Source: Deltaproteobacteria bacterium (GTDB taxonomy: Bacteria; Desulfobacterota; BSN033; UBA1163). Taken from it: 51,117 bases of DNA. Location of the stretch: assembly GCA_016874935.1 (NCBI GenBank), contig VGSS01000005.1, positions 1 through 51,117 of the forward strand. The letters are read 5' to 3'. The stretch's first letter is position 1; each line of letters begins with the position of its first letter. The notes beneath the pieces were generated by a model that made no database searches, had not been told where the DNA came from, and was given only the letters and a program-made list of their open reading frames with translations. The position numbers and the translations under genes were made by a program. This document shows positions 2,469 to 33,157 of this stretch, piece by piece.

Positions 2469-2608
2469 CGGTCAATTTTCTCCTTCCTGCTATGCATGTG
2501 TGGCACATACCTTTGTCCCTGCATAGGCTGTTGATACCTACATCGAGTCTTCGATTACAGGTTAAAAGAGACTCGTTCCTCTCACATGTCCGATGTCGCC
2601 CTATTGGC

Positions 2609-3358: not shown

Positions 3359-3464
3359 GTCTCTATTTTAGAGGATCCTGTTGGGGGGCTGCAGGCCAAC
3401 AGGAAAACCCTGGCACGCTGTGCCCCCCTCTCTTCCAGTCTTACAACATCAGACCGTTAACGAT

Positions 3465-4817: not shown

Positions 4818-4821
4818 TTTC

Positions 4822-15729: not shown

Positions 15730-15770
15730 GGTTTGTACCTCCTTTGTTATAATGGGATCTTCTTTTTTAC

Positions 15771-15786
15771 AGCAAGATAAGTGCCA
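15771..15786 (-). promoter_or_regulatory. Sigma-54 (-24/-12) promoter
   Basis: On the minus strand the sequence reads TGGCAC, five bases, TTGCT. This keeps the invariant GG and GC at the correct ten-base separation and nearly the whole consensus. The predicted start at about 15760 gives a 5' leader of about 30 bases that includes the AAAGGAGGT ribosome site of AOR 1. The neighbouring gene encodes a sigma-54 activator, so this is probably its target. Confidence 0.85.
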
Positions 15787-15809
15787 AAGAAAGTCGTTTT
15801 TATTCCTTG

Positions 15810-15853
15810 ACTCAACTATCCGATATTAATGAAAAATAAAAAATTGGTTGAGT
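15810..15853. promoter_or_regulatory. Candidate upstream activator site
   Basis: ACTCAAC at 15810-15816 and GTTGAGT at 15847-15853 form a 7-bp inverted repeat. It lies 25-70 bases upstream of the sigma-54 promoter, in an AT-rich stretch between the activator gene and its presumed target. Activators of this class bind dyads upstream of -24. The spacing of the half-sites is wider than usual, so the call is tentative. Confidence 0.3.
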
Positions 15854-15990
15854 TTTTAGGTGAAAGTCTACCCTATATTTTACCAAATTGAGAAAACCCT
15901 TTTTTCATTTTGATAAAATTCAGGTCTCTATTTATGAAGGATATGAAATGCAAGAAAGGAATTGAACCATCTTAAAAAATTAAATAAGAT

Positions 15991-19328: not shown

Positions 19329-21203
19329 ATGTATCAGGGCGGATACACAGGGAAAATTCTTCGAATTAACCTTACCGATAAAACGATTAAAGAAGAAAAA
19401 TTGCCCCTGGAAGTGGCAAAAGATTTTATTGGAGGAGCAGGCTTTGGCATTAAGTATCTTTTTGATGAGGTGAAGCCTGGGACAGATCCCTTAGGTCCGG
19501 GGAATAAACTCATTTTTGCTCCTGGGCCTTTTACTGGAACAACTATCCCTTGTGCAAGTCGTATCTCGGTTACAGGCAAATCTCCTTTGACCCATACTGT
19601 GGGAATGTGTTTGTCAGGCGGACATTTTCCAGCAGAAATGAAACATGCAGGGTATGATGTCCTCATCATTGAAGGAAAATCTGAAAAACCCACCTATATC
19701 TGGATAAAGGATGGAGAGGTCCAATTGCGGGATGGGAGTAAAGTCTGGGGAACCCGGACCTTCGATTGTCAACAGATTATCAAGGATGATCTGAATGACC
19801 AGAATGTGAGAGTGGCTTGTATCGGCCCCGCTGGTGAAAACCTTAGCAAGCTCGCTTGTATCATTAATGAAAGAAGGGCTGCAGGCCGTAAGGGACTTGG
19901 GGCTGTGATGGGTTCTAAGAATCTTAAGGCCATAGCCATTCGTGGAAATGGCACCTTAGAGATCGCTTCTAAAGAGAGATTTAAGATCGCCAGAGGTGAG
20001 ATGCTCAAGGCAATGAAGGAGAGCCCCGTTCTTTATCCACAATTTGCTCTAACGGGCACTCCCTCAAATGTTGACAACACCTGTGCATTGGGTATCTTCC
20101 CAGCCAAGAACTGGTCAGCCACAGGGAAGTTTACACCTGTTGAGAAAATTGGGGTAGAGGCTCTCGAAAGTCGAAACGTTGGCAAGGAACATTGTTATAT
20201 TTGTCCGGTTGGGTGCAGCTTGCTACGTTTGGCTCGGACAGGGCCTTATGCTGGGATTCTTTCAGAAGGCCCGGAATTTGAGACCCTTTACTCCTTTGGT
20301 GGCCAGACCGGCGTGGATAACATTGATAGCATTATTGCTGCTGACCGACTGTGTGACGAGTTAGGGCTGGATACCATATCAACCGGAGTAACGATCGGTT
20401 TTGCTATGGAGCTGTTTGAAAATGGAATCCTGACCATAACTGACACCGAGGGATTAGAACTTCATTTTGGGAACCATCAGGCCATGAACAGGCTCATCTA
20501 TCTAATGGCATTCCGTGATGGGCTTGGGGAACTCCTCGCTGATGGAGTGAAGATTGCCGCAGGGAAAATAGGCAGGGGGGCGGATCGGTATGCCATGCAT
20601 ATCAAAGGCCTTGAACTTCCCGGTTATGATGTGCGGGGAGCCAAGGCACATGGCCTGAGTTATGCGACCGCTTATACAGGAGGGGATCATAATCGGGGAT
20701 ACGCCTTCCAGGAAATATTCGGACTTCCTATTCCCTACGCCGTGGACAGATTGAGCATTGAAGGCAAAGGAAAGCTCACCAAATGGAATCAGGATGTGAG
20801 GACGGCCACGAGTGACTGCCCGACAATGTGTGTCTTCCTCCTGGATACAGCCATGGCCCCAATGGCTACAGAGAATACAGCCTCATTGATGGAGGCGGTC
20901 ACTGGCCTAACCTATAAACCGCAAGATATCGAAAAGGTGGGGGAGCGGATAAACAATCTTGCAAGAGCATTTAATGTTCAAGAAGGCTTTACAAGGGCAG
21001 AGGATACATTCCCCGAAAGACTGATGACAGAGCCCTTAGAAAGCGGGGCGTCCAAGGGACACTTCATCAGCAAAGAAGATCTTAAAGTGATGCTGGATGA
21101 ATATTATGCGGCAAGAGGTTGGGCCCTGGATACGGGCATCCCAACGAGAGAGAAACTCGTTGAACTTGGCCTTGGTTCTGTGGCGGACCAGTTAGGGGTT
21201 TAA
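19329..21203 (+). CDS. Aldehyde:ferredoxin oxidoreductase (AOR 2)
   Basis: A 624-residue AOR-family protein. The ATG at 19329 is chosen because GGAGG lies at the right distance; an in-frame GTG four codons earlier overlaps that site. The pterin-binding N-terminal domain is typical (YTGKILRINLTDKTI, GGAGFGIKYLFDE, GRKGLGAVMGSKNLKA). Fe-S ligands are Cys289, 292 and 296 plus Cys497 or 501, nearly the positions known for the Pyrococcus enzyme (288, 291, 295, 494). It is expected to carry a tungsten or molybdenum bis-pterin and to convert aldehydes to acids, or a less usual substrate. A MoaD-like gene follows in the same frame. Confidence 0.93.
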   Translation: MYQGGYTGKILRINLTDKTIKEEKLPLEVAKDFIGGAGFGIKYLFDEVKPGTDPLGPGNKLIFAPGPFTGTTIPCASRISVTGKSPLTHTVGMCLSGGHFPAEMKHAGYDVLIIEGKSEKPTYIWIKDGEVQLRDGSKVWGTRTFDCQQIIKDDLNDQNVRVACIGPAGENLSKLACIINERRAAGRKGLGAVMGSKNLKAIAIRGNGTLEIASKERFKIARGEMLKAMKESPVLYPQFALTGTPSNVDNTCALGIFPAKNWSATGKFTPVEKIGVEALESRNVGKEHCYICPVGCSLLRLARTGPYAGILSEGPEFETLYSFGGQTGVDNIDSIIAADRLCDELGLDTISTGVTIGFAMELFENGILTITDTEGLELHFGNHQAMNRLIYLMAFRDGLGELLADGVKIAAGKIGRGADRYAMHIKGLELPGYDVRGAKAHGLSYATAYTGGDHNRGYAFQEIFGLPIPYAVDRLSIEGKGKLTKWNQDVRTATSDCPTMCVFLLDTAMAPMATENTASLMEAVTGLTYKPQDIEKVGERINNLARAFNVQEGFTRAEDTFPERLMTEPLESGASKGHFISKEDLKVMLDEYYAARGWALDTGIPTREKLVELGLGSVADQLGV

Positions 21204-21251
21204 AAAATCAAGCCCGAAAGTGATTTAATTAAAGTAAAGATACACACCATT

Positions 21252-21515
21252 TTGGCTCTGAAAAAAATTATCGGTCAGAGAGAATTGGATGTCTCCATTC
21301 CTCAAGGGAGCACCGTCATGGACCTTCTGGTTTGGATGAAAGAGAGATGGGGAGATAAATTATGGTCCCATCTGTTTGAGTCAGAGAGTGATCGCTTGTT
21401 GCCACATATTCGATTGATGATCAATGGAAGGTCTATCGAATTCTTAAAGGGTCTGGATACGCTCCTTCAGGAAGGAGACGAGTTCTTAATACTTCCAATC
21501 GTCGCAGGCGGATAA
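21252..21515 (+). CDS. MoaD/ThiS-like ubiquitin-fold protein
   Basis: A small beta-grasp protein ending in AGG, the di-glycine tail that becomes a thiocarboxylate in MoaD and ThiS. Such genes often follow AOR genes and are thought to serve tungsto/molybdopterin synthesis. The coordinates use the TTG at 21252 (87 residues), but this start is unsatisfying. The open frame continues upstream without a stop to the AOR stop codon, and the missing residues (IKVKIHTIL) form the expected first beta strand. An AUU start at 21228 (95 residues) or unusual initiation is possible. No ATG or GTG exists in that stretch in frame. Confidence 0.7.
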   Translation: MALKKIIGQRELDVSIPQGSTVMDLLVWMKERWGDKLWSHLFESESDRLLPHIRLMINGRSIEFLKGLDTLLQEGDEFLILPIVAGG

Positions 21516-21549
21516 TATTTTGGATGATTCCGCTGAGACGAAAAAGGTA

Positions 21550-21572
21550 GCAATTTTTTAAGGAAAAATTGC
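21550..21572 (+). promoter_or_regulatory. AT-rich hairpin before the PhlG-like gene
   Basis: GCAATTTTT (21550-21558) pairs perfectly with AAAAATTGC (21564-21572) over a TAAGG loop. It stands a few bases upstream of the GGAGG ribosome site for the gene at 21592. With no U tract it is more likely an mRNA-stability or processing element than a terminator. Confidence 0.35.
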
Positions 21573-21591
21573 CCAGGAGAGGAGGGTCGTT

Positions 21592-22179
21592 ATGTTCATC
21601 GAAGAGGTCAACCAACTTTTGGAGCCAGGGTACCTACCCTTTGAGACAGGAAACCAGCGTTTGGCAAACGGCCATATCTACATCGCTGTTTTAACCAGGA
21701 TGCCTCAATGTAAAGGGAAGATGGTCAACTGGTGGTTTGGGTATGCGGGAGACACGGAGAAGTATCGGATGTGGCACCCCAAGGACCATATCATTGGAGA
21801 CTGGGATGACAAATGGAGGCCTGGTCACTACATCGGGGCAAGTCATCTCGTTCACGAATATATTGGCGGTGAATTGGTCAAATTGAAAATCACTTTCCGC
21901 GAGCCCTCTGAATTCTTTGATCCTTCGAAGTTTAAAGAGGCAAAGGTGGGGGCGGCCATCTGTGGTGATGTTGGGCTACTTGAGGAGGGTATAAAGATTG
22001 GTAACCTCATTCATTTCGTCAGAGATACGGACTTTGGCTGTGAAATGCGCAGCCGGTTCTGGCTATTCGGGGCCGATGAAAAAATTGGCCGGACGCTGAT
22101 GCAGCATTGTATTGAAGAGATGGGAAACCTGGCTGATCTTCTCCCCGGGCTTTACGCCAGGGAGACGGGAAACCAGTGA
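21592..22179 (+). CDS. PhlG-like (DAPG hydrolase family) protein
   Basis: A 195-residue protein resembling the metal-binding core of 2,4-diacetylphloroglucinol hydrolase. The family block KMVNWWFGY, then YRMWHPKDH (His62, His66), is followed by HLVHEYIGGE (His85, His88, Glu89) and MQHCIEEMGNL (His172, Glu176). The last matches the HX3E zinc pair of PhlG. PhlG cleaves a C-C bond of an acylated phloroglucinol in a zinc-dependent way. This protein is about 100 residues shorter, lacking much of the N-terminal region, so the substrate may be smaller or the reaction different. It is third in the AOR 2 operon, and a strong GGAGG precedes it. Confidence 0.72.
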   Translation: MFIEEVNQLLEPGYLPFETGNQRLANGHIYIAVLTRMPQCKGKMVNWWFGYAGDTEKYRMWHPKDHIIGDWDDKWRPGHYIGASHLVHEYIGGELVKLKITFREPSEFFDPSKFKEAKVGAAICGDVGLLEEGIKIGNLIHFVRDTDFGCEMRSRFWLFGADEKIGRTLMQHCIEEMGNLADLLPGLYARETGNQ

Positions 22180-22314
22180 GCCCCGATCAAATGCCCTGAG
22201 ACCCAGGGATAAAAAAATACCATTTTGTTTTTCACAGAAATTAGGGGATGTGTTTGTAGATTGGGAACGATTTTAAACCTACCTATTTAAAAAGAAAGAG
22301 AAAGGAGGAGGCAG

Positions 22315-23325
22315 ATGAGAAAACAAATATTTACCAAAATTTCAATTCTTTTAATGGTCAGCTTAATCATGGGTTATGCGACTTTTGCCCAAGCCCAGAC
22401 AACAAAACCTTCACCCATAAAGCTCTCTTTAGTCACTTATACCGTTGTGACGGATGCCCACTTTCAGCACTGGAAGCCACTTTTTATTGATGCGGTGAAT
22501 GCACAATCAAAAGGTGAACTGGTTATCGAAGTAAGAGGCGGACCCGAGGTGATGAGCATCGCGGATATGGCAAAGGCAACTGCATCTGGCGTAACGGATA
22601 TGGCTGTGGCATCAACAGCAAACTTTGCTGACTTTGTGCCCGGATGCGATTTAATAAAACTCTCAGAAATAGCCTGGCAGGATGAGATCACCCGGGGAGT
22701 TCCTGCGTATATGGAAGAGCTCTACGCTAAGGTTGGGCTCAAATTCATAAGCAGGAAAATGCCCATCAATACCAACTACTTTCGAATTTGCCTTAAGAAA
22801 AAGATAACGACCATAGAGGGGTTTAAAGGAATAAAATTAGGGGGACCACCTCCTATTCATGGCGCCTTTGCGGCCCTTGGTGCAGCGCCGGTTAGAGCTG
22901 TGATACCAGAATACTATACGGCCCTTGAAAGAGGTGTGGTTGATGGAACCATCTTTGGGGGCGGTGTCTATGATGAGAATGCCTTATTTGAGGTGGCCCC
23001 ATTTGTCGTCAATCACCCGTTCTTTAGACCCACGGCAATGCTCATGATGAATCTAAAGAGGTGGGAGGCCTTGCCCAAACATCTACAGGACTTAATCTTG
23101 CGGGTCCGTGACGATATGCAGAAGAAGTATGAGCCCGTATATCTCGATTGGGAAAGAGCCGTGATAGCGAAGGTTACAGCTAAGGGTTCCCAATACTACA
23201 CATTGCCGCCGGATGTGGCCAGCTGGTATTCGAGAACAATTTATGACGGGGCGTGGACAGCGGATGCGCCTAAAAACCCGCCGGACGTTGTGGCAAAAAT
23301 AAAGTCACTGGTAACAAAGAGGTGA
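22315..23325 (+). CDS. dctP: TRAP transporter solute-binding protein (system 1)
   Basis: A 336-residue DctP-type protein. A signal peptide ends near AQAQ (residues 25-30). The mature part has family blocks such as IEVRGGPEVMSIADMAKATA and IKLGGPPPIHGAFAALGAAPV, plus GVVDGTIFGG, the usual last part of the ligand-binding hinge. It binds a carboxylate in the periplasm and passes it to DctQM just downstream. AAGGAGGAGG precedes the ATG. The gap of 135 bases upstream could hold a promoter, but no clear box was found. Confidence 0.92.
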   Translation: MRKQIFTKISILLMVSLIMGYATFAQAQTTKPSPIKLSLVTYTVVTDAHFQHWKPLFIDAVNAQSKGELVIEVRGGPEVMSIADMAKATASGVTDMAVASTANFADFVPGCDLIKLSEIAWQDEITRGVPAYMEELYAKVGLKFISRKMPINTNYFRICLKKKITTIEGFKGIKLGGPPPIHGAFAALGAAPVRAVIPEYYTALERGVVDGTIFGGGVYDENALFEVAPFVVNHPFFRPTAMLMMNLKRWEALPKHLQDLILRVRDDMQKKYEPVYLDWERAVIAKVTAKGSQYYTLPPDVASWYSRTIYDGAWTADAPKNPPDVVAKIKSLVTKR

Positions 23326-23344
23326 TGCCTTCCATGATATGAAC

Positions 23345-23369
23345 AAGGGAGGGTTTAGATCCCTCCCTT
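23345..23369 (+). terminator. Perfect intercistronic hairpin between dctP and dctQ
   Basis: AAGGGAGGG (23345-23353) and CCCTCCCTT (23361-23369) form a nine-pair stem with a seven-base loop. It lies directly after the binding-protein gene. There is no U run, so it may protect the 3' end of a dctP mRNA or partly terminate. It also shows that the frame starting at ATG 23339 is unlikely to begin there. Confidence 0.55.
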
Positions 23370-23401
23370 CAAGGATAAAAAGAGGTGGGTTGTTTACGCC
23401 T

Positions 23402-23947
23402 ATGAATGAATCACCCCGAAGGCCAAGCCTTTTCGACCGCATCATTGATATCGCTGCAGTGATCGTAGGGATTCTTTTTGTCTATTCAACGGTGGGCACG
23501 TGCGTTGAAGTCGTCATGAGATATTTTTTCAACAAGCCAACCAATTGGATCTTAGAATCAAATGAGTACGTCCTGTATATTGCCCCTTTCTTAGCCGCTG
23601 CCTGGATATTGAAACACGATGGACATATCAAAATGGATCTCATCGTTAATGCTTTGAGCCCAAGGAATCAAGCCCTATTAAACGCAGCGACTTCTCTTGT
23701 GGGTCTTTTGGTCAGCCTCACGATAGCCTGGTTTGGCGTTATGGTCACCCTGGATTCATTTCGAACCGGCTATATCACTTCCAGCGGGCATATCAGGATT
23801 AACCGTGGCTATTTCATGGTCGTGGGGGCCCTCGGCTGTCTCTTGCTCTCCATTGAATTCTCCAGAAGGGCGATATCTTACTTCCGTCAGATGGGAACGG
23901 TTAAAAATCTGATTCCAGATCAAAACAAAACTCCGGACGGGGTATAG
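23402..23947 (+). CDS. dctQ: TRAP transporter small permease (system 1)
   Basis: A 181-residue protein with four hydrophobic segments and the DctQ pattern VEVVMRYFFNKPTNWILESN followed by FLAAAWILKHDGHIKMDL. The start is set at ATG 23402, because GAGGTGGG lies before it and the earlier ATG at 23339 is inside a hairpin. It anchors the membrane subunit DctM and links it to the binding protein. It ends 6 bases before dctM. Confidence 0.9.
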   Translation: MNESPRRPSLFDRIIDIAAVIVGILFVYSTVGTCVEVVMRYFFNKPTNWILESNEYVLYIAPFLAAAWILKHDGHIKMDLIVNALSPRNQALLNAATSLVGLLVSLTIAWFGVMVTLDSFRTGYITSSGHIRINRGYFMVVGALGCLLLSIEFSRRAISYFRQMGTVKNLIPDQNKTPDGV

Positions 23948-23953
23948 CAGGCC

Positions 23954-25276
23954 ATGGAATGGCAATACGTTATTCTCTTTATGTTTGTAAGCCTCATCGT
24001 ATTAATGCTAACCGGCTTACCGATCGCTTTCTGTTTTTTTGCTGTCAATATTTTTGCCGGGTATATCTTTTTTGGTGGCATGATTGGCTTAGAGCGATTC
24101 TACGGGAGTATGTACTCAACGTTGATCAGCTTTATCTTTCTTCCCATTCCTCTCTTTATCTTAATGGGCGAAGTCTTATTTTACTCTGGGTTAGCTCCCA
24201 TCTTAATAAAAACATTAGATAAATGGATGGGGCGTATGCCCGGAAGGTTAAGCTTATTAGCCGTTGGCGCCGGCACCCTATTTTCAACCTTGACAGGCAC
24301 CAGTATTGCCAGTGTGGCCATGTTGGGATCAGCCCTGGTTCCCGAGATGGAACAAAGAGGTTATAAAAAACCGATGACCATGGGCCCCATTATGGGAAGC
24401 GGGAATTTAGCCATGTTTATCCCTCCCAGCGGGCTCGCTGTTCTTTGCGGCGCATTGGCCCATGCCTCCATAGGACGACTTTTGATTGCCATCATCCTTC
24501 CCGGGCTTCTGCTCGCCGCTCTCATGGCAGCCTACATTATTATACGATGTTTGATTCAACCTGATCTGGCACCCTCATATGAAGTCTCCCGTACCTCTTT
24601 CTCCGTGAAGGTCAGGGAGTTTATTAAATACATATTGCCCCAGAGCATCGTCATCTTCCTTGTCATCGGCGTCATTTTTTTGGGCATTGCAGGCCCAGGA
24701 GAAGCGGCCGCTACCGGCGCAATGGGGGTGATTGTCTTGGCGCTCTGCTACAAAAAACTTAGCTGGCAAGCCTTTATGAATGCAGTCATGGGCACGGTGA
24801 AAGTGACAGGGATGCTTTTTCTGGTTATAGCGTCGGCAAGGTTTTTCAGCGAAGTCATGGCATTCAGCGGCGCCACTGCTGGCATGGCTGCAATTGTCAA
24901 AGATATTCAACTCTCCCCAATGATGATTATCATCATCATGCAACTCATCGTCCTCTTTCTGGGATGCTTTATGGATCCTCCCTCCATCATGATGATCACG
25001 ATCCCCATTTTTATCCCCATCGTAAAATTTTTAGGCTTTGATCTGATATGGTTCTGTGTGCTTCTGCTCATTAATATCGAGATAGCCATGATCACGCCCC
25101 CCTTTGGAGTAAGTCTATTTGTGATGAAAGGGGTTGCAACCAAGGATACCACCATGGTGGATGTGTATAAAGCAGGCTTTCCATTCGTACTGCTAAGCTT
25201 ACTCGCGATGGCTCTTATCATGATTTTCCCTAAGCTGGTCATGTGGCTTCCTGGCATCATGATGAGGTTTCGATAG
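23954..25276 (+). CDS. dctM: TRAP transporter large permease (system 1)
   Basis: A 440-residue polytopic protein with about twelve hydrophobic segments. Family marks are GLPIAFCFFAVN, PLFILMGE, MGSGNLAMFIPPSG and the later LGCFMDPPSIMMIT. It is the secondary-active, sodium-coupled channel of the TRAP system and works with DctQ and DctP. Confidence 0.93.
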   Translation: MEWQYVILFMFVSLIVLMLTGLPIAFCFFAVNIFAGYIFFGGMIGLERFYGSMYSTLISFIFLPIPLFILMGEVLFYSGLAPILIKTLDKWMGRMPGRLSLLAVGAGTLFSTLTGTSIASVAMLGSALVPEMEQRGYKKPMTMGPIMGSGNLAMFIPPSGLAVLCGALAHASIGRLLIAIILPGLLLAALMAAYIIIRCLIQPDLAPSYEVSRTSFSVKVREFIKYILPQSIVIFLVIGVIFLGIAGPGEAAATGAMGVIVLALCYKKLSWQAFMNAVMGTVKVTGMLFLVIASARFFSEVMAFSGATAGMAAIVKDIQLSPMMIIIIMQLIVLFLGCFMDPPSIMMITIPIFIPIVKFLGFDLIWFCVLLLINIEIAMITPPFGVSLFVMKGVATKDTTMVDVYKAGFPFVLLSLLAMALIMIFPKLVMWLPGIMMRFR

Positions 25277-25380
25277 ATCTTGAGTGACCTTACCATAGAG
25301 CCTCTCGATGAGCCTTTGATACCATCCTGATTTTTTGAAACATTTCATCTTTTAAAGAAAGGAGGTTGGGAGTAAATCCT

Positions 25381-25941
25381 ATGGTTGAAGAGGCGGATCT
25401 GGGAAAAAGAATCCAACAATTCCGAATAAATAAGGGATTGACTCTCCAAGAGTTAGCGGAGAAAACAGGCTATACCAAGGGCTATCTATCTAAAATTGAG
25501 AATACAGAAAAAGCCCCTCCGGTTTCCACACTCATCAATATCGCCAAAGCATTGAATATCAGTATTTCAGAGATCTTCGGAGAAATAGAAGAAAATAGTC
25601 CCATTTGTCTGGTGAAGAAGTTTGAAAGACGTATTATTGCGCGAGATGGATCGGTCTTTGGATATGCTTATGAAACATTGGCCCACAAATTTCATAGCAA
25701 GAAGATGGAACCCTATTTTTTAACTATTCCCTTAGCCCCTAAAGAAAATGCCCTTTTTCAGCATAAAGGGGAAGAGATACTATTCGTGCTTGAAGGGAAA
25801 ATGAAATTTTATCATGGGGAAAAGGAGTTCATCGTTGAAGAAGGAGATTGCATCTACTTTGATGGTAGTGTTCCCCATTATGGGGTTTGCGAAGGGAACA
25901 GAGAAGTCAAATGTCTGATGGTTATTTATACTCCAGAATAG
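25381..25941 (+). CDS. XRE-cupin transcriptional regulator
   Basis: A 186-residue protein with an N-terminal XRE helix-turn-helix (residues about 8-62: LGKRIQQFRINKGLTLQELA, TKGYLSKIEN) and a C-terminal cupin (about 105-185: GEEILFVLEGKMKFYHGEKE, GDCIYFDGSVPHYG). Such regulators sense a small metabolite in the cupin and control neighbouring catabolic genes. The ATG at 25381 is preferred to the TTG at 25366, since the TTG abuts the AAGGAGG site. Its position between the two TRAP systems makes it a candidate controller of this arm. Confidence 0.9.
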   Translation: MVEEADLGKRIQQFRINKGLTLQELAEKTGYTKGYLSKIENTEKAPPVSTLINIAKALNISISEIFGEIEENSPICLVKKFERRIIARDGSVFGYAYETLAHKFHSKKMEPYFLTIPLAPKENALFQHKGEEILFVLEGKMKFYHGEKEFIVEEGDCIYFDGSVPHYGVCEGNREVKCLMVIYTPE

Positions 25942-26034
25942 AGCAGCGATTGTTGCCCTAAGCAGTTTGGGTTGGCTTTTGCCCATCCGATCTTTTGCAA
26001 GAAAAAGAGATAGATAAAAAAGGAGGTTTAAGCC

Positions 26035-26796
26035 ATGGGAAAAGTAAAACTTTTTGATTTGAGTCATCCTTTTGGAGACAAGGTCCCTCTGTGGCCGTAT
26101 TTTGCCGATGTCAAGATTGAGCGCATGCATTACCATGCCAAATCAGGAGTGCTTTCTCAGGTCATCACCACCACCATGCATTGCACAACCCATGCAGATT
26201 CGCCGGCCCATGTGTTTGAAGGGGGTATGTTTACGGATGAGATTCCTTTGGAAAAGTATTACGGCACCGGAGTCGCTGTCTCAATTCCTAAGAAAAAATG
26301 GGAGAAGATCATGCCAGAGGACTTAGAGAAAGCCCGCCCAAAGATTGAAAAGGATGACATCGTCATGATTAATACAGGCTGGCACCATAAATACTCTGAC
26401 AGTGTCGAGTATTTCTGTTACTCCCCTGGTCTTTACAGAGAGGCTGGAGAGTGGTTAGTGGCAAAGGGGGTGAAGTGTGTTGGGGTTGATCAGCAGGCCC
26501 TGGACCATCCCCTGGCCACGGCCATTGGTCCTCATGGGTCTGGCCCACTCAGGCCAGACATATGTGCGGAGTATAAAAGAGCAACAGGGCGAGATGTGCT
26601 GGAAGATTTCCCTGAATGGGAACCTTGTCACAACCTTCTTCTCCGCAACGGCATCATGGGCTACGAGAACGTGGGGGGTGACCTTGACAAGGTAACCGGT
26701 AAGAGATGTACCTTTGCCGGTTTCCCGATCCGCTGGATGAAGGGCGATGGCTCTATCGTGAGATTGGTAGCTATTGTAGATGAAGGGGATCAATAG
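26035..26796 (+). CDS. Cyclase-family (PF04199) metal-dependent hydrolase
   Basis: A 253-residue protein of the kynurenine formamidase / isatin hydrolase family. The metal motif is HCTTHADSPAH (His49, His53, Asp55, His59), where the common Gly-Thr is Thr-Thr. FDLSHPFGD opens the protein and DQQALDHP follows later. Family members use zinc or manganese to open amide or carbon-carbon bonds of small rings or activated carbonyls. Here it follows the regulator gene and precedes TRAP 2. A ring-opening hydrolase of a cyclic 1,3-dione, comparable to dihydrophloroglucinol cyclohydrolase, is the proposed role; amide hydrolysis is the alternative. AAAGGAGG precedes the ATG. Confidence 0.85.
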   Translation: MGKVKLFDLSHPFGDKVPLWPYFADVKIERMHYHAKSGVLSQVITTTMHCTTHADSPAHVFEGGMFTDEIPLEKYYGTGVAVSIPKKKWEKIMPEDLEKARPKIEKDDIVMINTGWHHKYSDSVEYFCYSPGLYREAGEWLVAKGVKCVGVDQQALDHPLATAIGPHGSGPLRPDICAEYKRATGRDVLEDFPEWEPCHNLLLRNGIMGYENVGGDLDKVTGKRCTFAGFPIRWMKGDGSIVRLVAIVDEGDQ

Positions 26797-27007
26797 GTCC
26801 TGATTTGAACAGAGATGTGTAAAATGATGAAAGGGGGCTCGTTCATGAGAAGACAAAATACTCGAGTACGAAACATCAGGTTGGAATATTTGAGGGCAGA
26901 CTAAGGGAGCGAAGGAGAGAAAGGAAGGAGGTGGTGGGTGTAAGGGGATAATTCGGGCGAAAGAAAGAAGTGATAAAAACTTAAATGATGAAAGAGGAGG
27001 TGCAGAG
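26797..27007 (+). other. Purine-rich spacer before TRAP system 2
   Basis: A 211-base gap, strikingly purine-rich on the plus strand (AGGGAGCGAAGGAGAGAAAG and similar), with several GGAGG-like runs. It contains a possible 27-codon frame beginning at the ATGATG near 26824. No hairpin, promoter or recognised RNA was found. Confidence 0.3.
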
Positions 27008-28066
27008 ATGGAAAGCAAAAAATTCTTATTTTTTTTGGTGATTACTCTGATTTTATCCTTTACCAATTTTCCTGCGATTGCACAAGAAGTCATCAAACTC
27101 AAATTCAGTACAGGTTATCCTCCACCACCAGACTTGACCGCTGTGGACCATGTATGGTTTATGGACGAGGTTAAAAAGCGAACCAAAGGGCGGGTGACCT
27201 TTGACGTGTTCTGGGGAGGAGCCTTAGGCAAGCCTTTGGAGCATATTGATATGATCAAGAGAGGAGTGGCCGACATCGGGAGAGTGCCGCTGTTGTTCCA
27301 TCCTGACAGAGCGCCACTTTGGGCTTATGAGTTTGCGTTTCCCTTTGCTCCTGGAGATCCTGAGGATATTGCAAAAGTATGGTGGAAGCTTCACGATGAA
27401 TTTCCTATTATTCAGAAGCAGTTGGAAAAAGACAATCAGATTGCCCTCCAAGTGACCTTAATTGACGATTACCATTTGCTTTCAAGGGTACCCCTTAAAA
27501 CTCTGGCTGACTTAAAAGGCAAATTAGTGGGTGCTTCAGGTATTTACTTCCCAAAACAGTTAGAGGTTGTTGGATCAAAAGCTCATATTTCCCCTATGGG
27601 TGAGCGCTATATGCAGCTGAAGCTTGGCACGATTGATGCCAATCATGGCCCTATTGAGTATATACGGGGCTTTAAACTGTTTGAGGTGGGAAAGCATCTA
27701 TTAATTACCAACATCGGTGCTTGGGCCTCAGGTGCCGTCACCATGAATTTGGATGCTTGGAAGAAGATTCCTCCGGACATTCAAAAGGTTTTTGGGGAAG
27801 TTGGTAAGGAGGCAGGGGTTGTGCATGGAAAGCGTCTCAAAGAAGAGAGGGAAAAGGATATCAAATTTCTAAAGGAGCAGGGCGTTACCTTTTATACATT
27901 ATCTGAAGCAGAGAAAGAGAAGTGGGCGTCTATGGTGCCAGATCTTCCGGGGATACTGGTAAAAGACCTGGAAGGCAAGGGATTCCCTGCCGGAAAGTAT
28001 TTAAAACGCTGGTATGAAGAACATAAAAAGCTCGGACATAAATGGTATTATACACCGACCTGGTAG
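27008..28066 (+). CDS. dctP: TRAP transporter solute-binding protein (system 2)
   Basis: A 352-residue DctP-family protein. The signal peptide ends near AIAQ (residues 23-26), followed by EVIKLKFSTGYPP. Later blocks (VTFDVFWGGALGKPLEHIDM, LGTIDANHGPIEYI) are the usual ligand-site regions. It is clearly different from the system 1 binding protein, so the two TRAP systems probably import different carboxylates. GAGGAGG precedes the ATG. A 145-base gap without clear hairpin separates it from dctQ. Confidence 0.9.
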   Translation: MESKKFLFFLVITLILSFTNFPAIAQEVIKLKFSTGYPPPPDLTAVDHVWFMDEVKKRTKGRVTFDVFWGGALGKPLEHIDMIKRGVADIGRVPLLFHPDRAPLWAYEFAFPFAPGDPEDIAKVWWKLHDEFPIIQKQLEKDNQIALQVTLIDDYHLLSRVPLKTLADLKGKLVGASGIYFPKQLEVVGSKAHISPMGERYMQLKLGTIDANHGPIEYIRGFKLFEVGKHLLITNIGAWASGAVTMNLDAWKKIPPDIQKVFGEVGKEAGVVHGKRLKEEREKDIKFLKEQGVTFYTLSEAEKEKWASMVPDLPGILVKDLEGKGFPAGKYLKRWYEEHKKLGHKWYYTPTW

Positions 28067-28211
28067 ATCATTCGATCTTGGCAATATTGGGATTTCGTCC
28101 GCGAGAAGGCCCCGCTGCTTGCCTCGTGTGAAGCTTAGCTTCTATCGGAGTGCGCAGCGGGGATGGAGAGGGTTCCTTTTTGATGGTCATCCATAAATCA
28201 GGTATGAAGCC

Positions 28212-28727
28212 ATGTTCAATAGGATCCAACGCCTCAGTCAAAAAATAAATGAATATGCGGGAATTTCGAGCGGCATTTTGGTGTTTTTGGTATCCGGCAC
28301 TATCGTGATCTATGCGTTCGGTCGAAAATTTCATGATGTCGTCTGGTTCCATCTATACTATTATACCGAATTTGGGATGGCTTGGCTGATCTTTATTTCC
28401 CTTGCTTATGCATTAATTGTAGGGGCCCATGTAAGGGTGACATTCGTTCAAATGCGACTGCCACCACGAATGAGACAATGGTCGAACGTCCTTGTTCATG
28501 CCGTGGGTGTGGGCTTACTTGGATTATTTATTTTAGGAGCTTGGCCACTTATTGGGGAATCCATTCGGCTTAAGGAAAGAATGCTGGCACCTATGGGGAT
28601 TAACATCCCTATGTGGATCGCGAAGCTGAGTGCAGGAGTTGGCCTTACTCTATTGTTTATCCAATTTATCATTGAACTGATCCAGGCCTTGAGTGAGTCG
28701 TTGACGAAAGTGACGAAGAAAGAATAG
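28212..28727 (+). CDS. dctQ: TRAP transporter small permease (system 2)
   Basis: A 171-residue membrane protein with four hydrophobic stretches and the DctQ position motif YAFGRKFHDVVWFHLYYYTE, then AYALIVGAHVRV. It is the small membrane subunit of the second TRAP importer, and ends 11 bases before dctM. The ribosome site is weak, which is common inside TRAP operons. Confidence 0.88.
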   Translation: MFNRIQRLSQKINEYAGISSGILVFLVSGTIVIYAFGRKFHDVVWFHLYYYTEFGMAWLIFISLAYALIVGAHVRVTFVQMRLPPRMRQWSNVLVHAVGVGLLGLFILGAWPLIGESIRLKERMLAPMGINIPMWIAKLSAGVGLTLLFIQFIIELIQALSESLTKVTKKE

Positions 28728-28738
28728 GAGCGATCTCA

Positions 28739-30049
28739 ATGGAATCCCTTACCATCGGCATCATCGGTATCATTGCTTTCTTCGTTCTACTATTAATAGG
28801 CGTCCATATAGCATCCGCGTTAGCCATCGTGGGCGCGTTGGGTTTGATCGCTATCTTGGGTTGGGATAAATCAATAGAATTCATTTCGTTAACGGCCTTT
28901 TTCTCTGTGTTTAGGTTTGAGCTCATAGCATTGCCTCTCTTTATCATGGCGGGTGTGGTGGCAGCCCTGGGTGGTTTAAGTCGGGATATCTATGTTGCCT
29001 TGAGCAAATGGACCACTCGCTTCAGGGCAGGGTTGGGCATGGCCACCATTGCCAGTTGTACCTTGTTTGGCACAGTCTGCGGTTCAGCCCTTGTCACGGC
29101 TTCGGTATTTGCCAAAGTGAGTTCTCCCCAGCTTAGAGCTTTGGGCTATCCGAAAGGTTTGGCTTATGGGGTCGTAAGTGCTGGCGGGATGATCGGAATG
29201 CTTATTCCTCCGAGCATCCTCATTGTGTATTACGCCATACTCACCGAGGAATCGGTTGGGAAGCTTCTCATCGCTGGAATATCCCCTGGCCTTTTACTGA
29301 CCATTATTTTTTGGATCGGCCTCTGGGTGAAAGGCCGGCTAAATCCGGATTTGTTCGGCGCTCCTTCGATGACTCATCCCACATGGCGTGAGCGGATTGC
29401 CACCCTGCCACTGTTATGGCCAGTGACCCTTGTTGCAGTCATACTGGTCGGCGGTATCATTTCGGGCGTCTTTGACCCTAATGAAGCTGGGGCATTGGCC
29501 GTCATGGTCATACTGCTTTTGACCATACTCAGGATTCGTTCGATCAAAGGTCTGATTCCCTCTTTTAAGGAGGCGGCTGCTGTGACAGGGATGATCTTCT
29601 TTATATTTATTGGTGGCACGCTCTTTAGCCGCTTCCTCACCCTTTCAGGAATAACGCCGGTCATCATCAAATGGATCATAGGTTTAGAATTGTCTCAATT
29701 GGGGATGGTCATCGCCATGTGCGTGGTCTATCTGATTATGGGGTGCTTCCTCGACAGTATCTCGATGCTTTCCATTACCATTCCTCTCATCTACCCTGTG
29801 ATAAGAACCATGAAGATTGATCCCATATGGTTCGGTATGTCAGTCATCATGGCAATAGAGATTGGTCTTATCACTCCTCCATTTGGTCTCAATATTTTTG
29901 CAGTGAAAGGTATTGCCGAAAGAGATGTCAGTCTGGAAGACATCTTCCGTGGGGTTTTACCCTTTATTCTGATGTCGTTGGGAGTTTTAATCCTTATTAT
30001 TGCTTTTCCCACGTTGAGCACCATTCTACCCAACTTGATGATGAAATGA
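28739..30049 (+). CDS. dctM: TRAP transporter large permease (system 2)
   Basis: A 436-residue polytopic membrane protein of the DctM family, with GVHIASALAIVGALG, LPLFIMAGVVAALGG, AGGMIGMLIPPSI and MGCFLDSISMLSIT. It forms the transport channel with its DctQ and binding protein. GGAG lies before the ATG. It is followed after 57 bases by the small cupin gene. Confidence 0.93.
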   Translation: MESLTIGIIGIIAFFVLLLIGVHIASALAIVGALGLIAILGWDKSIEFISLTAFFSVFRFELIALPLFIMAGVVAALGGLSRDIYVALSKWTTRFRAGLGMATIASCTLFGTVCGSALVTASVFAKVSSPQLRALGYPKGLAYGVVSAGGMIGMLIPPSILIVYYAILTEESVGKLLIAGISPGLLLTIIFWIGLWVKGRLNPDLFGAPSMTHPTWRERIATLPLLWPVTLVAVILVGGIISGVFDPNEAGALAVMVILLLTILRIRSIKGLIPSFKEAAAVTGMIFFIFIGGTLFSRFLTLSGITPVIIKWIIGLELSQLGMVIAMCVVYLIMGCFLDSISMLSITIPLIYPVIRTMKIDPIWFGMSVIMAIEIGLITPPFGLNIFAVKGIAERDVSLEDIFRGVLPFILMSLGVLILIIAFPTLSTILPNLMMK

Positions 30050-30106
30050 CTTATTGGAAGAATCTACGAGATTCAACAAAAAGATTTAGCGAAGGGAGGC
30101 AGAGAA

Positions 30107-30445
30107 ATGAAAAAAGTAGAATTAAAAGATGTGAAGCCGTATCAAGCCCCAAAGCATTTTAATATGACAGCCCTGAGACTCCACGGGAGAGAGGAAACAG
30201 GGTCCCAGAGATTTTGGATGGGGCTATCCCACTTTCTTCCAGGGGGAGGGGCGGAGTTCGATTCCACACCTACTGAAAAGATCTATTTTGTACTTGAGGG
30301 AGAGGTCACTATCAAAACCACAAATGAAGAGATCGTGCTTCAGCCCTGGGATTCGATCTATATCGGCCCCAATGAAGGCAGAGAGATAATCAATCGAACC
30401 AATAGACCTGCCAGTATGCTGGTGGTGATCAACTATCCTGATTGA
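30107..30445 (+). CDS. Small single-domain cupin protein
   Basis: A 112-residue cupin with the two strands visible as KIYFVLEGEVTIKT and PWDSIYIGPNEGREI. The usual metal-binding histidines of the first cupin motif are absent, so a catalytic metal site is doubtful. It may bind a pathway intermediate or act as a regulator partner. It is followed closely by the SDR gene at 30460. Confidence 0.75.
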   Translation: MKKVELKDVKPYQAPKHFNMTALRLHGREETGSQRFWMGLSHFLPGGGAEFDSTPTEKIYFVLEGEVTIKTTNEEIVLQPWDSIYIGPNEGREIINRTNRPASMLVVINYPD

Positions 30446-30459
30446 ATAAGGAGCGCATC

Positions 30460-31239
30460 ATGAATAGAGAAGATATTTATCATCTTTTTGATGTGAACGG
30501 AAAGACCGCCCTGATCACAGGAGCGACCGGAGGCTTTGGCAAGGCAGCCGCCAAAGGGTTGGCCGCTGCTGGAGCGAAAGTGATGGCGACGGCGCGAACT
30601 TTATCGGCGCTTGAACAACTGGTCAAAGAAGTTGGTGATTCCGGGAGCCAGTCAGCCTTTTCCGTTGGGGATCCCGTTAACTACGAAGATGTAAAACGTG
30701 TTGTCAGGGATACGGTGGATACCTTTGGGGGTATAGACATATTGGTCACTGCGGCTGGCATCAACAAGGTCAGCCCTATTATCAAACAGCCTGTTGAGGA
30801 GTGGGAAGGGATCTTAAATGTCAACCTAAAGGGCACCTACCTCTTCTGCAAGGAGGTGGGCAAAGTGATGATTGAACAGGGCAGGGGGGGCAAGGTCATT
30901 CTCGTAGGATCAGCCCGTGGGCACCTGGGCTTGAGTAACTACAGCGCCTATTCTCCTTCGAAGGGTGCGGTCCATCTGCTGGCCAAGACACTGGCCTGTG
31001 AATGGGGCCCTCATAAAATCAATGTGAATGCGGTGGCCCCTACAGTCTTCAGAACCCCTCTCACGCAATGGATGTTTGATGACAATGCTTTTTACCTGAA
31101 CTTTCTTAAACGTATCCCCTTGGGGAAGTTGGGCGAGCCTGAGGACTTTATTGGGACGGTCATCTTTCTTTCGTCTAAGGCATCTGACTTTATGACCGGA
31201 GCCATTGTGGATGTAGATGGCGGATACACGGCAGGATAG
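30460..31239 (+). CDS. Short-chain dehydrogenase/reductase (ring-reductase candidate)
   Basis: A 259-residue classical SDR: TGATGGFG cofactor loop, TAAGINK, catalytic Ser in VGSARG and YSPSK near residue 160. ATARTLS after the second strand carries an Arg, consistent with NADPH. ATG 30460 is chosen because AAGGAG lies 7 bases before it; a TTG at 30442 would add six residues and overlap the cupin gene. It heads a tight run SDR, hydroxyacyl dehydrogenase, BKACE. Known phloroglucinol reductases are SDRs, so reduction of a phenolic or enolic ring is a candidate role, but most SDRs look alike. Confidence 0.9.
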   Translation: MNREDIYHLFDVNGKTALITGATGGFGKAAAKGLAAAGAKVMATARTLSALEQLVKEVGDSGSQSAFSVGDPVNYEDVKRVVRDTVDTFGGIDILVTAAGINKVSPIIKQPVEEWEGILNVNLKGTYLFCKEVGKVMIEQGRGGKVILVGSARGHLGLSNYSAYSPSKGAVHLLAKTLACEWGPHKINVNAVAPTVFRTPLTQWMFDDNAFYLNFLKRIPLGKLGEPEDFIGTVIFLSSKASDFMTGAIVDVDGGYTAG

Positions 31240-31254
31240 AGGGAGATGGGAGTC

Positions 31255-32196
31255 ATGCCTAATCTAAAAAACATTGCTGTCGTCGGTGCTGGAATGATGG
31301 GCCATGGAATTGCCCAGATCTTTGCGACTCATGGCCATAAGGTGATCCTGCTTGATGTGAGCGATGAGATTTTAACAAAAGCGATTGAGAACATTCGGGC
31401 CAACTTGATCCTTTTGGCTCGAAGTGGCATCGGAAGTGAAAAAGAGATCGAACCCTCGATTGAAAGAATCACGACTACCCGGAATATGGAAGAAGGCGTT
31501 TCGGGTGCCAGATTGGTGATTGAATCGATTCCTGAAGATTTGAATCTAAAGCAGAACCTTTTTCAAAAACTGGATGCGCTTTGCCCATTCGATACCATTC
31601 TGGCTACAAATACCTCTGTTATGAGCATCACGGAGATCGCATCCAAGGCTTCAAAGAGGGAACGAATCGTGGGAACCCATTTCTGGAACCCGCCCTATCT
31701 CATCCCTTTGGTCGAGGTGATCAAAGGGCAGGACACATCTGCCCAGACGATAGACGCCGTTTTTGATCTGTTGAAGTCTATAAAGAAATACCCGGTCCTG
31801 GTTAAGAAAGATGTCCCGGGTTTTGTAGGAAACAGGCTCCAACATGCCCTGTGGCGCGAGGCAATCTCTATTGTCGAGCAAGGGATTGCTGATCCTGCAA
31901 CCGTTGATGAGGTCATAAAAAAAGGGTTTGGGGTCAGATTGCCAGTGCTTGGGCCACTTGAGAATGCCGATATGGTGGGATTGGACCTAACCCTCCAGAT
32001 ACACCAATATATCCTCAAACATATTGAAAGATCGCCCGATCCCTCACCTCTTCTGAGGCAAAAAGTAGAACAACAAGAGCTTGGCTTTAAGACGGGTCGG
32101 GGATTTCAGGGCTGGACCACTGAGGCCATGGAACGATGTAGAAAACAACTTCTCAAACACCTTATCGCTTGGCATCAGAGGAGCGAAAAAGATTGA
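31255..32196 (+). CDS. 3-hydroxyacyl-CoA dehydrogenase-like protein
   Basis: A 313-residue protein with an N-terminal Rossmann domain (VVGAGMMGHGIAQIFATHGH) and the family block GTHFWNPPYLIPLVEVI containing the catalytic His. It ends with the C-terminal 3HCDH helical domain. It should oxidise a 3-hydroxy acid or its CoA thioester with NAD. The FWNPP form, instead of FFNP, also occurs in relatives acting on free 3-hydroxy acids. Immediately before a beta-keto acid cleavage enzyme, it would supply the keto acid. The ATG at 31255 is preferred because GAGGGAG lies about 9 bases before it, while it abuts the ATG at 31246. Confidence 0.88.
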   Translation: MPNLKNIAVVGAGMMGHGIAQIFATHGHKVILLDVSDEILTKAIENIRANLILLARSGIGSEKEIEPSIERITTTRNMEEGVSGARLVIESIPEDLNLKQNLFQKLDALCPFDTILATNTSVMSITEIASKASKRERIVGTHFWNPPYLIPLVEVIKGQDTSAQTIDAVFDLLKSIKKYPVLVKKDVPGFVGNRLQHALWREAISIVEQGIADPATVDEVIKKGFGVRLPVLGPLENADMVGLDLTLQIHQYILKHIERSPDPSPLLRQKVEQQELGFKTGRGFQGWTTEAMERCRKQLLKHLIAWHQRSEKD

Positions 32197-32221
32197 AACA
32201 AAACATGATAATGGAGCGATT

Positions 32222-33157
32222 ATGGATAAACTGATCATCACTGCGGCACTGACTGGAAACATTACCTTGCCAACACAGACACCGTATTTACCCCTTGCCC
32301 CGCAACAGATCATTGATGACGCAGTGCGAGCGGCAGATGCAGGAGCTGCCTCGGTACATATTCACGGCCGTGATCCAAAGACCGCAAAACCGACTACCGA
32401 TCCAGCCGTCTACAGAGAGATTGCCGCTGGCATTAAAGCCAGAAGCAATGTGATCGTCTGCATCACCACCGGCGGTACGGCCTATATGACCCCTGAAGAA
32501 AGAGCCCGGGTGGTGCCTGCCCTCAAACCGGAGCTGGCCACGTTTAATATGGGAACGATCAATTTTTCCATTCATCCCATCGCAGACCGTTACAAGGATG
32601 AAGACTACAAATATCCCTGGGAGAAGGAATTCGCGGTTAGCACTAAAGACTTTATCTTCAGAAATACCTTTGGCGATATCGAGAAGCTCATGCAGATGAT
32701 GAAAGAAAACAACACCAAGCCTGAGTTTGAGTTGTATGACGTGGGTCATCTCTACAATCTTAACTTCCTGGTTAAGAGAAACATCATCCACTTCCCCGTT
32801 TGGCTACAGTTCGTCACTGGGATTCTGGGTGGTATTGGGGCCAATGTAGATGAAGTCGTCCACATGAAACAGACGGCCGATCGCTTGCTTGGTATGGACA
32901 ATTATATCTGGTCCGTCATCGGTGCTGGGTACCCGGCAGAATTCAATCTGGCGACCTTAGCGATCATGATGGGGGGACACGCCAGAGTGGGCATGGAAGA
33001 TAATATTTTCGTCGCAAAGGGGGTCTTAGCCAAAAGCAATGCGGAGCTTGTGGAGAAGGTCGTTAGAATTGCCCGAGAATTGGGAAGAGAAATTGCTACT
33101 CCTGACGAAGCAAGAAAGATCCTTGGCTTAAAAGGGAAGGAACAGGTCAATTATTAA
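32222..33157 (+). CDS. BKACE-family beta-keto acid cleavage enzyme
   Basis: A 311-residue protein of the DUF849/BKACE family, which uses acetyl-CoA to cleave a beta-keto acid into acetoacetate and a new CoA ester. Predicted zinc ligands are His46 and His48 (SVHIHGRD) and Glu259 (GMEDN). The opening LIITAALTGN is the family start. One BKACE member, triacetate acetoacetate-lyase, ends the anaerobic phloroglucinol pathway, and others act on 3-keto-5-aminohexanoate or dehydrocarnitine. Its place just after a hydroxyacyl dehydrogenase supports a role in cleaving the oxidised product. The TAA stop shares an A with the next ATG. Confidence 0.92.
   Translation: MDKLIITAALTGNITLPTQTPYLPLAPQQIIDDAVRAADAGAASVHIHGRDPKTAKPTTDPAVYREIAAGIKARSNVIVCITTGGTAYMTPEERARVVPALKPELATFNMGTINFSIHPIADRYKDEDYKYPWEKEFAVSTKDFIFRNTFGDIEKLMQMMKENNTKPEFELYDVGHLYNLNFLVKRNIIHFPVWLQFVTGILGGIGANVDEVVHMKQTADRLLGMDNYIWSVIGAGYPAEFNLATLAIMMGGHARVGMEDNIFVAKGVLAKSNAELVEKVVRIARELGREIATPDEARKILGLKGKEQVNY

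Follow-up and report, generated by a model that had tools for sequence, protein, structure and literature searches.

A probable phloroglucinol degradation island with putative upstream funnelling enzymes in a desulfobacterotal draft genome

Anaerobic Phloroglucinol Degradation

When flavonoids and tannins are broken down without oxygen, phloroglucinol (1,3,5-trihydroxybenzene) is a key intermediate. According to a study of Clostridium scatologenes (mBio 2023, PMC10470551), it is degraded by four enzymes: PGR, a short-chain dehydrogenase/reductase (SDR); DPGC, a cyclase that depends on Mn; the dehydrogenase TfD; and TAL, a member of the BKACE family. The same source reports that the pathway is spread over many lineages and that, in Mycobacterium, a DAPG_hydrolase lies beside the module. 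Here, this pathway is compared with a block of genes at positions 19329–33157, and two genes just beyond it, of a 51,117-nt stretch from a deltaproteobacterial draft genome (Desulfobacterota; GenBank assembly GCA_016874935.1, contig VGSS01000005.1, positions 1–51,117, forward strand). This whole stretch is called the window; coordinates refer to it, and L and G numbers are our handles for loci and genomes. The block is probably an anaerobic phloroglucinol degradation island with upstream funnelling enzymes, which most likely serves acyl-phloroglucinol or polyphenol degradation in a syntrophic desulfobacterotal lineage.

With the C. scatologenes pathway the window shares the four co-located enzyme families, the clade of the SDR, residues W20/Y22 of the cyclase, and the Ser/His/Asn set of the dehydrogenase, though ordinary 3-hydroxyacyl-CoA dehydrogenases have this set as well. 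It differs in that its BKACE belongs to another clade and lacks the Trp of TAL; in that a small cupin, a MoaD-linked oxidoreductase of the AOR family, an enzyme of the acetylene hydratase branch, and TRAP importers are added; and in that neither thiolase nor CoA-transferase is present among the annotated island genes.

The Core Genes

The core consists of the following genes:

26035..26796, plus strand: candidate dihydrophloroglucinol cyclohydrolase (PF04199, W20/Y22, metal motif H-x3-H-x-D-x3-H)
30107..30445, plus strand: small cupin, accompanying the phloroglucinol module in 29 of 31 loci
30460..31239, plus strand: candidate phloroglucinol reductase (SDR; best PDB match 5g4k)
31246..32196, plus strand: candidate (S)-3-hydroxy-5-oxohexanoate dehydrogenase of the TfD type (PF02737/PF00725)
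32222..33157, plus strand: long-type BKACE, predicted to cleave triacetate (3,5-dioxohexanoate; NF053538, 404 bits, cut-off 430)

All genes named in the initial annotation are real open reading frames (ORFs), on one strand and in succession; only the dehydrogenase start given there, 31255, is an internal ATG of a frame beginning at 31246, and the small cupin was missing from its gene list. On sequence evidence, cyclase, cupin, SDR, hydroxyacyl dehydrogenase, and BKACE together correspond to the module already published for anaerobic phloroglucinol breakdown. The clostridial type of reaction sequence proposed for the block at the outset is borne out by the SDR, which belongs to the clade of 5g4k, and by the cyclase with its W20/Y22 pair.

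The SDR matches 5g4k with 226.7 bits, the next molecule in the PDB following at 182.0; the two proteins are 42.6% identical and form one group with a support of 100/97 in a midpoint-rooted tree of 32 rows. Left out of this tree were a second SDR of the window (SDR2) and seven loci whose SDRs are generic and long-branched, all of them among an earlier 39 rows. A second group of core-linked SDRs, including those of Rubrivivax and Moorella, is separate from that of the window and 5g4k. The PDB lists 5g4k only as an SDR oxidoreductase; we take it to be the Clostridium phloroglucinol reductase. A crystal structure of PGR from Clostridium sp. ATCC BAA-442 is cited, without a PDB code, in PMC10470551.

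In the cyclase, W20 and Y22 are accompanied by the metal motif H49-x3-H53-x-D55-x3-H59; Trp20/Tyr22 are the residues singled out in the C. scatologenes cyclase versus Ile/Leu in isatin hydrolase (PMC10470551). The pair occurs in 22 of 22 cyclases of core loci and in three of ten outside them (L121, L124, and L122), the other seven being without it; of the three, L121 and L124 have other core genes or a BKACE nearby, and L122 has not. About 330 bases from its W/Y cyclase, and near a contig end, L122 encodes (3227–4267, minus strand) a corrinoid protein resembling HgcA of mercury methylation, with 420.8 bits against a cut-off of 275.

The dehydrogenase is 46–74% identical to those of core loci, and its S124, H145, and N196 correspond to S122, H143, and N194 of C. 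scatologenes TfD. In TfD the catalytic Ser/His/Asn are kept, and Lys56/Asn221, which bind CoA in the CoA dehydrogenases, are lost (PMC10470551). The three residues are common to ordinary 3-hydroxyacyl-CoA dehydrogenases as well, which counts against reading them as a mark of this pathway.

The core set recurs across several phyla, among others in Clostridium intestinale, Moorella, Desulfosporosinus, and Fusibacter. Rubrivivax gelatinosus, reported as a phloroglucinol degrader (PMC10470551), has the whole core except the dehydrogenase within the stretch examined. Of the 96 loci that were scanned after removal of duplicates and short search loci, 31 have two or all three of the genes for SDR, dehydrogenase, and cyclase above fixed identity thresholds. 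A first definition of the core had demanded cupin plus SDR; three loci of Comamonadaceae that it counted as core (L069, L072, and L075) are without a cyclase, their SDRs show 26–28% identity, and their BKACEs lack the Trp of TAL. A parallel module, in which a cyclase of a "WF" type (LWPFPGPRQD; 35–48% identical to that of the window) stands beside an SDR, was seen in L110, L111, L116, L117, and L118 (genomes G304, G011, G054, G265, and G223); cupin, BKACE, or dehydrogenase are also present in several of these loci, which perhaps carry out the same chemistry on another cyclic diketone.

The small cupin is an overlooked conserved partner of the pathway and goes unmentioned in the main text of PMC10470551. 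By the second core definition, which does not require it, it was found in 29 of the 31 phloroglucinol loci. The usual HxH metal motif is absent, Y12, H17, E57, K58, Y60, E90, and R92 are invariant, and the nearest folds are those of tm1459 cupins. Its sole NCBIfam match at E 1e-10 is to a family named beta-D-galactosidase, which was not accepted as its function (92.6 bits of a cut-off of 175). That family is probably named after the mycobacterial cupin Rv1717 of PMC7873859, in the accessible text of which a term search found no mention of the genes neighbouring Rv1717; the name may mislead, because Rv1714–Rv1716 are linked to a Clostridium polyphenol cluster in the portion of PMC5894108 consulted.

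The Cleavage Enzyme

In BKACEs of the TAL type, Trp16 takes the place of Glu14 of KCE (PMC10470551). The respective motif, TGAWP, is present in the BKACEs of 18 core loci whose enzyme is of the short type, and in that of Rubrivivax locus L061; ORF calling had missed genes in L061 and L097, and the BKACE of L061 was read by hand. The initial annotation placed the BKACE of the window in a reaction sequence comparable to the one with TAL, a reading that is not upheld in that form: the enzyme reads TGNIT, with Ile at the place of the Trp and no Trp; in a 63-row tree it falls in a clade separate from the canonical TALs; and relatives of 89–95% identity are found in three genomes (G001, G009, and G016) that have no cyclase match at E 1e-10. 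Together with a score of 404 bits, below the cut-off of 430, to NF053538 (3,5-dioxohexanoate:acetyl-CoA acetone transferase), these observations weigh against a strict TAL role. The phylogenetic check proposed there went in favour of phloroglucinol for the SDR (5g4k clade) and against the TAL clade for the BKACE, though the latter was not seen to group with enzymes proven to act on a different substrate.

An ordinary KCE was rejected as well, since the protein scores 268 bits against KCE versus 404 against NF053538; its nearest solved relative is 3lot (389 bits). Four candidates for canonical TALs (L041, L061, L089, and L091) reach 225–252 bits with NF053538 and fit the KCE model better; no experiment underlying NF053538 was found in the dioxohexanoate literature. 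In the tree, from which rows below 255 or above 330 residues (that of L125 among them) had been left out, it takes 11 changes to account for the distribution of the label "near core", nine of them forced by starred branches. Since the core-linked BKACEs fall in several clades, namely the canonical one, that of G019, G054, G068, and G272 (with the N-terminal motif of 3lot), that of the window, and that of the Comamonadaceae without cyclase, it seems that more than one BKACE lineage has supplied the lyase. Because the window enzyme is of another clade, a search with canonical TALs would, as this suggests, miss its lineage.

The island might instead degrade a related cyclic 1,3-dicarbonyl compound, or a substituted phloroglucinol, such as a methyl- or acyl-phloroglucinol, that retains its substituent while the ring is opened, the BKACE acting on a 3,5-dioxo acid other than triacetate. 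The divergent clade with Ile for Trp and the close relatives in genomes without cyclase would fit, as would the paralogous "WF" modules of G304, G011, G223, G265, and G054, which indicate that the scaffold was probably retuned before. We nevertheless consider this unlikely, as cyclase and SDR are of the phloroglucinol types, the closest curated model is that of the 3,5-dioxohexanoate enzyme, and long-type BKACEs lie on the same contig as core genes in nine loci (the window, L030, L036, L119, L120, L121, L124, L125, and L126), albeit at a distance of about 14 kb in L119 and with the cyclase alone in L124. The eight of them placed in the tree form two subclades, as if the slot had been refilled more than once. 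Triacetate is retained as the probable substrate of the window BKACE on the phloroglucinol reading.

Acetoacetate, one of the expected products, could be activated by an acetoacetate-CoA ligase. A gene for such a ligase adjoins the core in L120 and L036 and lies about 5 kb from it in L121; the host genome encodes such a ligase (70% identity) on another contig. No type I CoA-transferase was detected in the host genome at E 1e-3, and of 14 thiolase matches there, ten are above the family cut-off.

Flanking Genes and Their Linkage to the Core

The core is flanked and interspersed by the following genes:

19329..21203, plus strand: AOR-family (tungsten-type) oxidoreductase (PF01314/PF02730), possible entry-step enzyme
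about 21225..21515, plus strand: MoaD/ubiquitin-like protein with C-terminal GG (TIGR01687, 52.5 bits, cut-off 49.5)
21592..22179, plus strand: short PhlG/phloretin hydrolase-like metalloenzyme (PF18089, E 2.7e-48), putative C-acylphloroglucinol hydrolase
22315..25276, plus strand: TRAP transporter 1 (DctP, DctQ, DctM; PF03480, PF04290, PF06808)
25381..25941, plus strand: helix-turn-helix (HTH)-cupin transcriptional regulator (PF01381 and PF07883)
27008..30049, plus strand: TRAP transporter 2 (DctP, DctQ, DctM; by Pfam domains)
33157..35280, plus strand: MopB enzyme of the acetylene hydratase branch (best PDB match 2e7z, 347 bits)
35334..36311, plus strand: amidohydrolase/decarboxylase-like protein (PF04909), possible aromatic acid decarboxylase

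The PhlG-like gene noted initially does encode a homolog of PhlG and phloretin hydrolase with a metal site. Its best PDB matches by sequence are phloretin hydrolase (5xey/5xe5) and PhlG (3hwp), and the top six chains found with its structural model (pLDDT 84.3) come from the same three entries, with TM scores of 0.80–0.88 on the query (0.86 at 34% identity for 5xey_D). H66, E89, H172, and E176 are invariant in seven aligned proteins and in all 11 rows of a second alignment, and presumably are the metal ligands, as in PhlG. While fold and these four residues are common to PhlG, phloretin hydrolase, and the window protein, the latter has 195 residues versus about 280–300 and lacks the N-terminal 57–70; its relatives in L126 (204 residues) and L182 (216) are short too. 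It scores 67.5 bits with the PhlG equivalog NF047887 (cut-off 600). The natural inference is that the enzyme frees phloroglucinol from a C-acyl precursor.

At the position where homologs of the MoaD-like protein begin, its frame reads TTA ATT instead of ATG, GTG, or TTG, so that either a rare start codon is used or the sequence contains an error. A MoaD homolog also adjoins PhlG in L126, a cluster of G019, which belongs to another family of the same class. There, all genes run in one direction, in the order AOR, isochorismatase-like hydrolase, PhlG, MoaD, amidohydrolase, IclR-type regulator, branched-chain-type ABC importer, and cyclase, followed by cupin, BKACE, SDR, dehydrogenase, Mo enzyme, and an Fe-S protein. 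Identities to the window are 77% (AOR), 75% (PhlG), 85% (cyclase), 73% (cupin), 54% (BKACE), 72% (SDR), 64% (dehydrogenase), and 71% (Mo enzyme); the order is largely alike, with MoaD before PhlG and the BKACE after the dehydrogenase in the window. Since the core recurs in several phyla and AOR, PhlG, MoaD, core, and Mo enzyme stand together in G019, the grouping of these genes is beyond chance. Both the suspected link of AOR and Mo enzyme to the block and the anticipated conservation in other genomes (the core in several phyla, the set from AOR to Mo enzyme in G019) were thereby found to hold. The HTH-cupin regulator has a 92% identical counterpart in L032, and counterparts of 80 and 82% beside the core in L119.

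Co-occurrence was assessed over 296 genomes of the phylum, the host genome being left out, with tests that ignore relatedness. AOR orthologs (E 1e-200) are present in ten of 297 genomes, the host included; a W/Y cyclase is encoded in five of the nine other carriers and in five of the 287 remaining genomes (p 1.6e-6). For PhlG, the figures are four of ten carriers and six of 286 others (p 1.3e-4). Counted more loosely (any PF04199 match at E 1e-30), they become 6/9 versus 8/287 for AOR and 5/10 versus 9/286 for PhlG. Several points detract from this association and from a conserved front end altogether: four of the five genomes with AOR and cyclase (G054, G223, G265, and G304) are of one family; the cyclase of G054 is a fragment of a cut-off core, and without G054 the p value for AOR is 4.7e-5; AOR and PhlG overlap in only two other genomes (p 0.03); no core genes are found within the 5–20 kb stretches around the nine other AOR orthologs; and the transporters, which the initial annotation suggested to import the acid, differ, with TRAP in the window versus ABC in G019, the one other genome with the same arrangement.

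The island could also consist of two or three unrelated adjoining operons: the phloroglucinol core, a block of AOR and PhlG, and a block of Mo enzyme, amidohydrolase, peptidase, and Tct genes. Gaps of 76–211 bases set the sub-blocks apart, nine AOR orthologs have no core gene in the stretch examined, AOR and Mo enzyme are absent from other core clusters, and the amidohydrolase is only 30% identical to its counterpart in L126. This, too, appears rather improbable, because the succession from AOR to Mo enzyme exists in G019 as well, with local swaps (MoaD and PhlG; the BKACE before the SDR) and an exchanged transporter, and because an ortholog of the Mo enzyme (E 1e-205) occurs only in these two of 23 genomes of the class.

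The Mo/W Enzyme

The reading frame of the MopB enzyme overlaps the BKACE stop by one base; with the amidohydrolase it forms the pair of genes just beyond the 19329–33157 block. Acetylene hydratase 2e7z is its nearest solved relative (347 bits). The CxxCHGGC motif is present, and the Fe-S cysteines, as well as a Cys aligned with the metal-ligand segment of 2e7z, are kept; the two proteins differ at the residue after the second cluster Cys, which is Asp in 2e7z and His in 20 of 20 acetylene hydratase-like rows, the two of the window included. This Asp we take to be Asp13, which is presumably essential in acetylene hydratase. The second MopB enzyme of the window (48172–50334) is of the CxxCHGGC branch and 46% identical to the first; members of this branch (E 1e-150) are encoded in 42 of 297 genomes of the phylum, making it a large enzyme family of anaerobes.

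Pyrogallol-phloroglucinol transhydroxylase (4v4c) is likewise a Mo enzyme near the phloroglucinol core, with homologs in six other loci (L036, L041, L059, L064, L089, and, twice, L125); that of L089 reaches 1295 bits with 4v4c, and those of the other five are 57–70% identical to it. The window enzyme is related to it at superfamily level only. Very probably the window enzyme is neither a genuine acetylene hydratase nor a transhydroxylase of pyrogallol, the best PDB match to 2e7z and the transhydroxylase homologs near the core of six other loci notwithstanding: the Asp of 2e7z is replaced by His throughout, for which the former name was rejected, and the latter was rejected for 25% identity to the L089 enzyme, 25.7 bits to 4v4c, and the want of an adjoining Fe-S gene in the window.

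Orthologs above 50% identity were found in G019 (71%) and in G223 and G265 (53–54%), the three best first-look candidates having been scored per genome; family members at 44–47% are common. At E 1e-80, transhydroxylase is missing from seven of 15 genomes tested (the host, G019, G001, G012, G011, G068, and G067). Since G012, G068, and G067 have a W/Y cyclase with neither a transhydroxylase nor a Mo enzyme ortholog above 50%, the core needs neither, and a missing transhydroxylase is no predictor of the Mo enzyme. A ferredoxin-like Fe-S gene close to the Mo enzyme in G019 and G223 and, by position, in G265 points to redox chemistry of the enzyme. The absence of such a partner beside it in the window, like the W/Y cyclases of G012, G068, and G067 that occur without a close Mo enzyme, counts against the proposed funnelling. 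Catechol dehydroxylases, for which acetylene hydratase was given as the closest relative in the consulted part of a 2020 eLife report (PMC7028382), share that closeness with the window enzyme; from its position beside the core, it may speculatively be regarded as a candidate (de)hydroxylase funnelling polyphenols.

Surroundings and Host

On the 3′ side, the amidohydrolase, which among PDB entries best matches decarboxylases (those of ACMS, carboxyvanillate, and related ones), is followed by an M24 peptidase-like protein, a 2-hydroxyacid dehydrogenase, TctC, TctB, and (by position) TctA. An IS200-type transposase gene (41647–42321) separates the Tct genes from a branched-chain-type ABC importer and is a possible island border. 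On the other side, a second AOR and a sigma-54-dependent regulator (14023–17955, minus strand) lie in divergent orientation to the island, and 57 bases upstream of this AOR begins a sigma-54-like site, TGGCACTTATCTTGC. A scan for promoters and terminators gave no excess over shuffled sequences, and one for sigma-54 patterns gave a single plus-strand match, inside the cyclase gene, and four on the minus strand. A corrinoid methyl-transfer set (pterin-binding methyltransferase, UroD-like protein, and B12-binding protein; 1608–5451, minus strand) may have to do with demethylation of methoxy compounds.

The host assembly is a 3.05-Mb draft of 206 contigs, 91% complete and 4.8% contaminated. The host very probably is a syntrophic lineage of Desulfobacterota, as judged from the seven named BKACE relatives (76–95% identity), which stem from metagenome-assembled genomes (MAGs) of Syntrophaceae, Syntrophobacterales, Syntrophorhabdaceae, and other Deltaproteobacteria or Proteobacteria. 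Because regulator and BKACE of this contig have relatives of 92–95% in G001, a genome of the same genus, contamination of the bin is an unlikely source of the island. No close cyclase turned up in any of the nine other members of the genus analysed, which counts against the proposed reading: five gave no match at E 1e-30, and the other four and two that were rechecked gave none or only weak ones (E about 1e-11, in G002 and G003). Hence, the island is accessory, or it was lost elsewhere in the genus.

Proposed Pathway and Significance

In the proposed pathway the SDR would reduce phloroglucinol to dihydrophloroglucinol, the ring of which would be hydrolyzed by the cyclase (Mn-dependent in C. 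scatologenes) to 3-hydroxy-5-oxohexanoate, to be oxidized to triacetate by the dehydrogenase; these steps are strongly supported by homology. The long-type BKACE would then probably convert triacetate and acetyl-CoA to acetoacetyl-CoA and acetoacetate, and the latter would be activated by the acetoacetate-CoA ligase encoded elsewhere in the genome. Upstream, the short PhlG-like hydrolase is predicted to take off a C-acyl group, of the phloretin or acylphloroglucinol type, to yield phloroglucinol. More speculatively, the MoaD-linked AOR might take an aldehyde or acid belonging to this class of compounds; the Mo/W enzyme of the acetylene hydratase branch might add or remove ring hydroxyls, thereby leading further polyphenols to phloroglucinol. 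A more far-reaching idea is doubtful: that the syntrophic lineage mineralizes acylated or decorated phloroglucinols through a new funnel, in which a tungsten AOR has a MoaD of its own, the phloretin hydrolase is a minimal one, and a new class within the acetylene hydratase branch (de)hydroxylates polyphenols as pyrogallol transhydroxylase does elsewhere, all leading to a phloroglucinol core with an independently recruited lyase.

The initial annotation had held the combination of genes not to be described before. This does not apply to the pathway, published in 2023, nor to the adjoining DAPG_hydrolase; it stands for the other parts in so far as a term search of the main text of PMC10470551 found cupin, "aldehyde", and TRAP absent, and as, among the titles and abstract openings listed from the phloroglucinol literature on AOR, cupin, or cyclohydrolase, none describes this combination of genes. 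Known, then, is the pathway itself; new are the different recruitment of the lyase to its core and the conserved front end of AOR and Mo enzyme. According to the part of PMC12203004 consulted, 57 MAGs from 13 phyla expressed genes that transform phloroglucinol when catechin was supplied to a microcosm, and such genes are used to read polyphenol degradation from MAGs. For the entry steps of polyphenols into this metabolism, the conserved genes for AOR and the enzyme of the acetylene hydratase branch are concrete candidates.

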